From NCBI RefSeq assembly GCF_019237615.1, contig NZ_JAFAGT010000021.1, positions 1 to 64,000 on the forward strand: 64,000 nucleotides of DNA. The letters are read 5' to 3'. Shown one piece after another: positions 56,942-60,154 of the stretch. Below the pieces are notes generated by a model. That model did no database searches and had not been told where the DNA came from. It saw nothing but the letters and a program-made list of their open reading frames with translations. The translations under genes and the position numbers were made by a program. Each line of letters starts with the position of its first letter. Positions within the stretch are counted from its first letter, which is position 1. The stretch comes from Roseateles sp. Lineage in GTDB: Bacteria; Pseudomonadota; Gammaproteobacteria; Burkholderiales; Burkholderiaceae_C.

Positions 56942-58273
56942 ATGAATGTCGCCACCTGGATGCGCAGTTTCACGATCAGAACCCGGATGCACGGGGCCAT
57001 CGCCATGGTGTTGCTGATGTTCGCGGCGCTGGCCCTGACGGGACTGCTGGGCGGCCGCCAGCTGACGGCCCTGCAGGCCGAGGCCACGACGCGCACGACG
57101 CAGGACCTCCAGCAGCTCGCCGCCATCCGCCAGGCCCTGGCCGAGGTGCACCAGGCCGAGGGCCTGCCGGAGATCCCCAGGCAGACGCTGCGCGACATCG
57201 AGAAGCGCGTGGAGAAGCTGGCTGGCGTCGCCGACGGGCAGGTCAAGGCGGCCGAGGCCGCGTTCAGCGCAGAGATGCTGCGCATAGGCTGGCGCGCGCT
57301 GGCCGTGTTGACCCTGGTGCTGGTACTGGTCGTGCCGCTGACGCTGATCAATTCCTCCACCATCACCACCCCCATGCGCTATGCCTGCACGGTGGCCCAG
57401 TCCATCGCCAGCGGCGACCTGAACAACGATGTGCGCATCGCCGGCCGCGACGAGGCGGCCGACCTGCTGCGCGCGCTGGATGCCATGCAGGCCAGCCTGC
57501 GCGGCCTGGTCAGCCAGGTCAAGACCTCGGCGCTCAGCATAGAGACGGCCAGCGACGAGGTGGCCGCGGGCAACCACGACCTCAGCCAGCGCACCGAGCG
57601 CACCGCCTCCAGCCTGCAGCGCACGACCAATTCCATGGACGAGCTGACCCTGGGTGTGCGCCATGGCGCCAACGCGGCGGGCAAGGCGCGCGAGCTGGCC
57701 GCGGGCGCGGCCGAGGTGGCGCAGCGCGGTGGCCAGGAGGTGTCCGAGGTCGTCGCGACGATGGATGAGATCAACGCCAGCTCGCGCCGCATCGGCGACA
57801 TCGTGGGCCTGATCGACAGCATCGCCTTCCAGACCAACATCCTGGCGCTGAACGCGGCCGTCGAGGCGGCGCGCGCCGGCGAGCAGGGCAAGGGCTTCGC
57901 CGTCGTCGCCACCGAGGTGCGCTCGCTGGCGCAGCGCTCGGCGGGTGCGGCGCGCGAGATCAAGTCTCTGATCACCGCCAGCGTCGAGCGCACCGAGGCT
58001 GGTGCGCGCCTGGTGCAGCAGGCCGGCGCGACGATGCAGGACATCGTGGACAACGTGCAGAAGGTCAGCGACATGATCGGCGAGGTTGCCACCGGCGCGG
58101 CCGACCAGAGCACGCGCATCGGCCAGATCAACGGCGCCGTCAACCAGCTCGACGACATGACGCAGCAGAACGCCGCACTGGTGGAGCAGTCAGCCGCTGC
58201 CGCCGACAGCCTGCGCCAGCAGCTGCAGCTGCTGACCGGCGCAGTGGCGCAATTCCGGCTCGAAGGACGCTGA
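56942..58273 (+). CDS. Methyl-accepting chemotaxis protein, Tar/Tsr-like with short sensor
   Basis: A 443-residue chemoreceptor. Membrane helices at about 17-37 and 117-137 enclose only about 80 periplasmic residues, roughly half of a normal four-helix-bundle sensor. A HAMP domain (about 138-190) and the signalling hairpin ([46 protein letters not shown]) follow. There is no C-terminal CheR-binding pentapeptide of the NWETF type. It signals to CheA; ligand unknown. GGAGCA about 6 bases before the ATG is the ribosome site. Confidence 0.92.
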
Positions 58274-58279
58274 AAGCGC

Positions 58280-58300
58280 GGACCGCCTAGAATGCGGTCC
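58280..58300 (+). promoter_or_regulatory. Hairpin with embedded TAGAAT, likely metX promoter region
   Basis: GGACCGC (58280-58286) and GCGGTCC (58294-58300) form a perfect 7-bp dyad just after the chemoreceptor stop. Its loop contains TAGAAT (58288-58293), which fits a -10 hexamer that would start RNA just before the SAM-II aptamer. No good -35 was seen. It could be an operator dyad over the -10 or, from upstream transcription, an RNA hairpin; there is no U-tract. Confidence 0.4.
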
Positions 58301-58302
58301 CA

Positions 58303-58358
58303 TAGCGCCGATTTGTTCCGGATTGCGGGCGCTCTACAAATGCCGCTAAACAGGACTC
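58303..58358 (+). ncRNA. SAM-II riboswitch aptamer
   Basis: The sequence follows the SAM-II (metA-type) consensus. P1 is AGCGCC (58304-58309) with GGCGCT (58328-58333). The loop begins GATTTGTTCC, passes GGATTGC, and P1 is followed by CTACAAATGCCGCTAAACAGGA, all in the same order and spacing as the crystallised metX SAM-II RNA (GAUUU, UUGC, AAAUG, GCUAAA, AGG). UCC (58317-58319) can pair with GGA (58353-58355) as the pseudoknot. It senses S-adenosylmethionine and lies directly upstream of metX, the expected target. SAM-II is best known from alphaproteobacteria. Confidence 0.85.
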
Positions 58359-58372
58359 CGAAACCGGCGTCC
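58353..58372 (+). promoter_or_regulatory. Antiterminator hairpin candidate
   Basis: GGAC (58353-58356) pairs with GTCC (58369-58372) and CCG (58358-58360) with CGG (58365-58367), around an AAAC loop with one mismatch. It uses the GGA needed for the SAM-II pseudoknot and the left arm of the terminator that follows, so it cannot coexist with either. Confidence 0.6.
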
Positions 58373-58396
58373 GCAAAAGTGGCCGCCGGTTTTTTA
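58361..58396 (+). terminator. Intrinsic terminator between riboswitch and metX
   Basis: AAACCGGCG (58361-58369) pairs perfectly with CGCCGGTTT (58384-58392), followed by a run of six T (58390-58395). This is the only textbook intrinsic terminator noticed in the window, and it stands 14 bases before the metX start, so it must act conditionally. Confidence 0.9.
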
Positions 58397-58409
58397 TTGG
58401 AGTGAGGCC

Positions 58410-59578
58410 ATGACGGGCCGAAGCGTCGGCGACGTGTCGCCGCAGAGTTTTCATTTCGACGAGCCGCTGCCGCTGCGCAGCGGCGCCAGCCTGGGGCCCT
58501 ACGACCTGATGGTCGAGACCTATGGCCGGCTCAACGCCGAGCGCAGCAACGCGGTACTGGTCTGTCATGCGTTGAACGCCAGCCACCATGTGGCCGGCAG
58601 CTACGCCGGCCAGGCCAAGAGCGAGGGCTGGTGGGACAACCTCATCGGCCCGGGCAAGCCGCTGGACACCGACAAGTTCTTCGTCATCGGAGTCAACAAC
58701 CTCGGCTCCTGCTTCGGCTCCACGGGCCCCATGCACGCCAATCCGGCCACCGGCCGGGCCTGGGGCGCGGACTTTCCCGTCGTCACGGTGCAGGACTGGG
58801 TGGATGCCCAGGCCCGTGTCGTCGAACGCTTCGGCATCCTCAAGCTGGCGGCCGTGCTGGGCGGCTCGCTGGGCGGCATGCAGGCGCTGGACTGGGCGCT
58901 GCGCTACCCCGAGCGCCTCGCCCATTGCATCGCGATCGCGACGGCGCCCAACCTGTCGGCGCAGAACATCGCCTTCAACGAGGTGGCGCGCCGCGCCATC
59001 GTGACCGACCCCGACTTTCACGGCGGCCACTTCTACGCCCATGGCGTGGTGCCCAAGCGCGGCCTGCGCGTGGCGCGCATGATCGGCCACATCACCTATT
59101 TGAGCGACGACGTGATGGCCGAGAAGTTCGGCCGCGAGCTGAAGTCGGGCGAGCTGGGTTACTCGACGCAGGACATCGAGTTCCAGATCGAGAGCTACCT
59201 GCGCTACCAGGGCGACAAGTTCAGTGACTATTTCGACGCCAACACCTATCTGCTGATCACGCGCGCGCTGGACTACTTCGACCCGGCGGCCGAGCATGGC
59301 GGCGACCTCGCGCGCGCATTCGCCAGCGCGCGGGCCAAGTTCCTGGTGGCGAGCTTCACGACCGACTGGCGCTTCTCGCCGGCGCGCTCTCGAGAAATAG
59401 TCAAGGCGCTGCTCGACAACCGCCTGGACGTGTCCTACGCCGAAATCGATGCGCCGCATGGCCACGACGCCTTCCTGCTCGACGACCCGCGCTACCACGG
59501 CGTGCTGAGGGCCTACTTCGAGCGCATCGCGGGCGAGCTGGAAAGGCCTGCCGTGCTGCAGTTCAAGGGGGTGGCCAT

Positions 59579-59582
<4 letters not shown>
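58410..59582 (+). CDS. metX: Homoserine O-acyltransferase MetX
   Basis: A 390-residue alpha/beta hydrolase-fold enzyme that acylates homoserine in methionine synthesis. The nucleophile Ser 153 lies in [13 protein letters not shown], and the Asp and His partners in the C-terminal SFTTDWRF and [12 protein letters not shown] segments. MetX enzymes use acetyl-CoA or succinyl-CoA, which I cannot separate by eye. GGAG at 58399-58402 is well placed before the ATG. The transcript is preceded by a SAM-II riboswitch and terminator, so high SAM should lower expression. The stop overlaps metW by ATGA. Confidence 0.95.

Positions 59583-60154
<572 letters not shown>

Follow-up and report, generated by a model that had tools for sequence, protein, structure and literature searches.

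A SAM-II leader with predicted mutually exclusive antiterminator and terminator folds upstream of metX-metW in a Roseateles-group betaproteobacterium

Does the short leader preceding metX in a Roseateles-like genome sense S-adenosylmethionine (SAM), and how would ligand binding be conveyed to the transcribing polymerase? The locus lies within a window of 64,000 nt, the whole stretch of DNA that was analysed, to which all coordinates refer (plus strand unless stated). metX, encoding a homoserine O-succinyl/acetyltransferase, occupies 58410-59582, and its end is overlapped by metW at 59579-60154. Both genes had been proposed as the target in a preliminary description made from the sequence, and both were confirmed by family models (NF047916 MetX_succinyl, 671 bits, cut-off 560; TIGR02081, 236.1 bits, cut-off 189.5). 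The open reading frame upstream of the leader ends at 58273 and resembles methyl-accepting chemotaxis proteins at 335.8 bits, under the curated cut-off of 900. A scan of the metX leader for a sigma-70 consensus promoter found none. TAGAAT at 58288-58293 is a probable -10 element with a weak -35, which would place the transcription start near 58300. In 20/20 same-genus leaders a hexamer resembling TATAAT at 4-5 of its 6 positions begins 17-24 nt 5' of GATTTG, a figure that is the best match of a search carried out with no shuffle control. Translation is predicted to begin downstream of a Shine-Dalgarno-like GGAG (58399-58402), located 7 nt 5' of the ATG. MetX shares 94% identity with its counterpart in Pelomonas sp. 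Root1217, and a quick tree built from 81 MetX rows places the two proteins together, joined next by Inhella and after that by Roseateles and Paucibacter. By its MetX sequence the host is a Roseateles/Pelomonas-group betaproteobacterium, the type of organism initially suspected.

Screening with the covariance models of Rfam release 15 yielded a significant match to SAM_alpha (SAM-II, RF00521) at 58295-58370, with 39.8 bits against a gathering score of 36 (E 1.8e-5 for the window) and an alignment spanning the whole model, positions 1-79. The preliminary description had assigned the leader to SAM-II and named this search as a check, and its class call holds. RF00521 is the sole Rfam family to reach its gathering score in the 64-kb window, and the 4.8-Mb genome contains one RF00521 match only, that before metX. 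Rfam SAM-V gave no match in the metX leader. The SAM-II core letters GAUUU, UUGC, AAAU and GCUAAA are present in the expected order, every pair of the H-type pseudoknot (P1 plus P2/P2a) is possible, and a methionine gene, metX, starts 3' of the match. P1 joins 58304-58309 to 58328-58333 over 6 bp, and its 5' strand is invariant in all 22 rows of alignment A1, which comprises 20 genus leaders, among them that of the window, and two from Inhella. By homology with SAM-V and SAM-II structures (PMC6061858, available part), GAUUUG at 58310-58315, invariant in 22/22 A1 rows, would form the third strand of the P2 triplex; UUGC at 58323-58326, also invariant in A1, would pair as the P2 5' strand with GC(U)AA at 58345-58349; and the GCUAAA core at 58345-58350, invariant in alignments A1 and A2, would provide the SAM-contacting U and A. 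P2a is 3 bp only, formed by UCC at 58317-58319 and GGA at 58353-58355, the latter exactly where it had been placed before.

The RF00521 match clears its gathering score by just 3.8 bits, and a simple pattern scan for terminators at the metX leader returned 0 sites (shuffles average 0.4), probably, we think, because the terminator stem contains a mismatch. Both observations would suit a chance similarity, in which a plain terminator or hairpin between genes coincides with a false Rfam match. We attach next to no credence to this explanation and rejected it on four grounds. RF00521 has no match in 14 control genomes. It was found in 19/19 other same-genus genomes searched; its wider distribution, own genome included, is 39/60 relatives, 89/274 genomes of the class and 36/200 of the phylum. 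The model R1 matches near metX in 76/80 named metX loci (72 full-length matches of at least 48 bits, four weak or partial ones), with no match at L068, L071, L073 and L130; three of the 80 loci belong to the window's genus, and further ones may be close to R1 training genomes. Finally, the pseudoknot covaries in the class.

This last point required wider leader sets, since so little varies in the 22 genus and Inhella leaders, where P1 is constant and P2a is paired in 98.5% of alignment cells. From 219 loci we obtained 210 unique leaders, 20 from the genus, 125 from other genomes of the family, order and class (the class set) and 65 from named metX loci; 12 of the 219 loci had no leader and were dropped, as were duplicate leaders, and the regular expression used to find leaders was loose. 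In the class set, a 3-bp P2a helix whose 5' strand ends 3 nt before UUGC and whose 3' strand begins 2 nt after GCUAAA forms in 51/118 unique combinations versus 31.4 with swapped partners (0/3000 shuffles), using 17 pair types. Five spacings were tried per set, and this class result is the best of five and the only clear one. The named metX set gave a weak signal, 16/56 versus 12.5 swapped (100/3000), with an expectation of 11.8 at another spacing. Covariation across related genomes, a check proposed at the outset, was seen in the class set and is weak within the genus and among named metX leaders. Collectively, these sequence comparisons indicate that the metX leader aptamer is an ordinary, well-conserved member of the known class SAM-II, and from this membership we infer that it binds SAM.

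How the aptamer would be connected to transcription is suggested by the RNA downstream. An intrinsic terminator at 58361-58395 is built from the strand 58361-58369 paired to 58384-58392 and a further, upper stem, and it leads into U58390-58395; its coordinates were correctly given at the outset. Its computed energy is -20.9 kcal/mol and it is paired in 97.1% of cells over 22 rows, compared with 27-62% when the partner is slid. The competing fold has three helices, 58342-58347:58378-58383, 58353-58356:58369-58372 and 58358-58360:58365-58367, and reaches -20.0 kcal/mol. Its inner part is the hairpin at 58353-58372 noted earlier (GGAC:GUCC plus CCG:CGG; 97.4% of cells paired, 22 rows). Its outer part is a 6-bp helix between GCCGCU at 58342-58347 and AGUGGC at 58378-58383, the latter doubling as terminator loop and right arm. 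This helix is present in the lowest-energy fold of RNA ending at 58383 and is paired in 99.1% of cells, with two rows gapped. Over the 22 rows the antiterminator as a whole is paired in 98.1% of cells versus 31-61% with the partner slid. In leaders L011 and L015 the terminator is shortened and the outer helix missing. By computation the two folds are mutually exclusive and closely balanced, as well as conserved in the 22 rows, in keeping with the arrangement first described; in the growing RNA, the lowest-energy fold changes from the antiterminator at 3' end 58383 to the terminator at 58396. A weak window match to P17 (12.5 bits) covers the hairpin alone and was taken as chance.

The outer helix changes what is competed for. 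The preliminary description had taken the inner hairpin as the sole antiterminator, competing with the aptamer for GGA alone. That GGA is common to P2a and the hairpin stands, the hairpin is kept in 22 rows, and a GGAC..GTCC pattern, sought with a loose expression, occurs in 12/20 genus leaders, the window included (~0.3 expected). This account is nonetheless incomplete, and as a full explanation we consider it unlikely. By itself the inner hairpin has -9.5 kcal/mol, far weaker than the terminator and less than half of the energy of the full form, and its 4-bp helix alone is uninformative (20/20 genus leaders versus 16.7 in shuffles). A 5-bp partner for the outer strand (NNGCU) exists in 18/20 genus leaders versus 7.9 in shuffles. 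Because the outer helix captures the GCU of the GCUAAA core, the two-part antiterminator would exclude P2 and the SAM site, not just three bases of P2a. Ligand binding and read-through would then compete for the same bases, those of the ligand-binding strand that the antiterminator occupies.

Within the genus, covariation is too low to prove the antiterminator. Both-sided changes number 0 for antiterminator pairs and 1 for terminator pairs, and partner shuffling left the antiterminator figures unchanged (500/500), the pairs being mostly invariant there. The wider leader sets were used for this reason. Terminators under -12 kcal/mol occur in 20/20 genus leaders versus 1.3 in single-base shuffles, in 97/125 of the class set versus 4.7, and in 57/65 named metX leaders versus 3.3. 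A 7-bp downstream partner for GCUAAA plus one base was found in 73/125 class leaders versus 7.0 in single-base shuffles and in 29/65 named leaders versus 3.0, but in 0/20 genus leaders (0.4 expected). In about half of the non-genus leaders (102/190), the sequence indicates that an antiterminator could form with the SAM-binding strand itself, again more than the inner hairpin would explain. The window's genus appears to retain this strand-taking principle by means of a different helix; the 5-bp partner for the NNGCU strand is found in 56/125 class leaders versus 36.3 and 19/65 named leaders versus 15.1 in shuffles. The motif UUURGC lies downstream in 94/190 non-genus leaders, and the positions after GCUAAA vary jointly with it, reading GCG:CGC or GCG:UGC in many leaders and GAC:GUU in others, including Comamonadaceae. 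Covariation was found at t2 (24/36 unique combinations versus 15.5; 4/2000 shuffles) and t3 (26/36 versus 19.0; 19/2000) and was not clear at t1 and t4 (128 and 678 of 2000 shuffles).

Antiterminator duplexes were also compared with swapped ones. Among 104 cluster representatives, 23 with no good terminator were dropped, and in the remaining 81 own duplexes beat swapped duplexes (-15.95 versus -13.80; 0/5000). As cluster representatives are still related, such shuffle counts are not true probabilities. The antiterminator tail excluding GCUAAA did no better than swaps (z -0.89). Dinucleotide shuffles placed the window's antiterminator duplex in the best 5/100, a rank reached in only 10/19 genus, 50/125 class and 35/65 named leaders. 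On the MetX tree, the GCUAAA-type antiterminator needs 6 changes versus 24 with labels shuffled. Terminators and GCUAAA-taking antiterminators recur in relatives above shuffle levels.

With a probability of about 0.88, we propose that plentiful SAM turns metX-metW off through a SAM-II riboswitch coupled to a transcriptional attenuator, the OFF direction and the kinetics being those expected of the class. When SAM is scarce, nascent RNA extending to about 58383 would fold the 3' aptamer strand into the long antiterminator. Because this structure uses the terminator left arm, polymerase would read into metX, and metX-metW would be on. When SAM is bound, GCUAAA would be held in P2 and GGA in P2a, so that the antiterminator could not form; the equally stable terminator stem at 58361-58392 would fold, and transcription would stop at U58390-58395, leaving metX-metW off. 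The terminator is favoured at full length even with no ligand, so the antiterminator would have to win kinetically. Attenuation of this kind has precedent, as most SAM-II riboswitches are described as transcriptional (PMC6061858, available part) and the S. meliloti metZ SAM-II is predicted to be transcriptional, with a ~100-nt RNA that fits a terminated leader (PMC9373788, available part).

SAM-II could instead act mainly on translation or RNA stability, with the hairpin constitutively terminating a fraction of transcripts and so giving rise to a short leader RNA. The S. meliloti metA SAM-II precedes a terminator and acts partly on translation (same source, as far as available), and the terminator is the more stable fold in the window. 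We regard such a mode as quite improbable at this locus, since the aptamer ends ~55 nt before the metX ATG and excludes GGAG, and since the terminator left arm lies inside an antiterminator whose strands, across lineages, pair more strongly with their own partners than with swapped ones. Transcriptional attenuation remains the reading that we prefer for metX-metW.

Is metX the only SAM-related gene of this genome with such a leader? Elsewhere in it R1 has two further matches, of 38.4 and 37.1 bits (L221:1503-1564 on G000:C27 and L222:1503-1564 on G000:C52), both before metK genes (TIGR01034, 591.7 and 589.9 bits), with the GCUAAA ending 72 and 62 nt 5' of metK. The genus motif is nUCGCC-GAGUUA..ACUUGC-GGGGCGAn..GCUAAAGCGUUCGCC, with variations in farther relatives; GAGUUA, rarely GAUUUA, replaces GAUUUG, followed by ACUUGC and, in most cases, GCUAAAGCGUYGCC. 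No Rfam family, RF00521 and SAM-V included, matched the element itself at E<=1 in L221, L222 or 20 variant loci. Because the element has no RF00521 match, we call it SAM-II-like rather than SAM-II. When the L222 leader was used as a DNA query, the element turned up in the own genome and in 18/19 same-genus genomes. Searching with model R2 gave matches in 82/150 genomes of the order at E<=1e-4, ordinary SAM-II included, and 18 of 30 loci fetched from this search (L266-L295) lie before metK; the R1 tally of 108/150 genomes mixes SAM-II with metK-type elements and is unusable as a SAM-II count. The P1 closing pair of the metK element is A-U, G-C or U-A, with a covariation score reached in 0/500 shuffles (19 distinct rows), and its 3-bp P2a forms in 22/22 unique combinations versus 17.9 swapped (0/3000), appearing by eye as GAAC:GUUC, AGAC:GUCU and CGAC:GUCG.

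A T5 run is present in only 5/41 unique metK leaders, making translation control likelier. On balance, we lean towards a betaproteobacterial two-part circuit of the SAM-II superfamily, in which a transcriptional attenuator would govern metX-metW and an undescribed SAM-II-like aptamer, probably translational, would precede both metK genes here and other Burkholderiales metK genes. No title or abstract describing a SAM-II-like element before metK was found in our literature search. A 2014 survey of beta-proteobacteria, in the part available (PMC4239095), reports an unsuccessful search for a regulator of metK, the gene before which this unannotated element lies. The tail following GCUAAA, GCGUUCGCC, has ~10 bp of complementarity with the metK start (GUGGCGAACG) in L221, L222 and L237. 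Some members of the genus show a single mismatch in this pairing, and farther relatives have different partners. Read simply, it would create an ON switch for SAM, which is unexpected for a SAM synthetase.

Several leaders carry more than one aptamer. In the tandem leaders L040, L282, L296, L298, L286 and L280 a SAM-II is succeeded by another aptamer, either SAM-II or SAM-II-like, and in some genomes an element resembling that of metK lies just 3' of a terminating SAM-II, again as a tandem. One genome, G306 (L040, L150-L153), has five RF00521 matches, and by pattern a second aptamer follows in 4/5. SAM aptamers of two types share a leader at L271:1501-1719 (minus strand), where a SAM-I/IV riboswitch match of 44.9 bits (cut-off 41.1) precedes the SAM-II-like element by ~34 nt.

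The strand opposite the metX leader drew a weak match (18 bits; 58303-58395, minus strand) to RF02424, the Burkholderia sRNA Bp2_Cand287. We attribute this match to the SAM-II leader, of which it is the complementary strand. Among 150 genomes of the order, 28 contain 29 RF02424 matches. Judged by eye against the R1 matches listed, 27 of the 29 overlap R1 on the opposite strand; the remaining two, G549:C3 and G523:C53, fall outside that listing. The RF02424 cut-off was passed by one match only, at L224 (107.5 bits), where R1 on the strand opposite covers model positions 4-32 only and RF00521 has no match at E<=1. By eye, L224:1501-1703 resembles a SAM-II with a ~30-nt hairpin inserted between P1 and GCUAAA. 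Since RF02424 lies opposite SAM-II-type matches, at loci including L224-L235, the family is probably a wrong-strand version of the SAM-II leader. No paper was found under the name Cand287.

A close published counterpart of the window leader is the 'novel' metXZ element, with a pseudoknot and a terminator, reported before metXW in beta-proteobacteria, including 10/11 Comamonadaceae (PMC4239095, available part). The same source describes an Rfam scan of 2014 that found SAM_alpha only in Rhizobiales and Rhodobacterales. As far as the accessible text goes, metXZ shares with the window leader a position upstream of metXW, two pseudoknot pairings, a terminator thereafter and one copy per genome, and it occurs in Comamonadaceae and other beta-proteobacteria, the group to which the window's host belongs. 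In that text it is not called SAM-II, and regions 3 and 4 are proposed for the antiterminator, whereas our evidence points to GCUAAA, the final conserved segment, together with the sequence 3' of it. Of 11 loci from the Comamonadaceae group, 10 show RF00521 at the expected position, but at 23.8-31.7 bits (E 0.0024-0.33), under the cut-off, with no match at L120; R1, built from other loci, matches all 11 at E 1e-12 or better. The Rfam cut-off therefore missed every one of them. From the published description and these model matches, metXZ is very probably the same RNA as SAM-II. A literature search on metXZ and riboswitches found only PMC4239095, and no title or abstract linking metXZ to SAM-II. 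Separately, an Mn2+ (yybP-ykoY) riboswitch scores over cut-off upstream in 9/11 of the Comamonadaceae-group metX loci and just under it in a tenth; such matches lie ~700-1000 nt before metX in L104, L094, L132, L120 and others.

Among known systems, SAM-V has a core that superimposes on that of SAM-II, with the same pseudoknot and ligand mode (PMC6061858, available part). The metY SAM-V described there is translational, and neither the window leader nor the metK elements match Rfam SAM-V. The tandem leaders recall the SAM-II/SAM-V tandem of Pelagibacter (PMC11508383). The SAM-II transcriptional riboswitches of alpha- and beta-proteobacteria (PMC2258182; S. meliloti metZ, PMC9373788, available part) resemble the window leader in aptamer, methionine-gene target and downstream intrinsic terminator. 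The window leader differs in having a P2a of just 3 bp and a predicted two-part antiterminator, GCCGCU:AGUGGC plus GGAC:GUCC, in place of the 7-bp duplex with GCUAAA plus one base present in 73/125 leaders of the class set.
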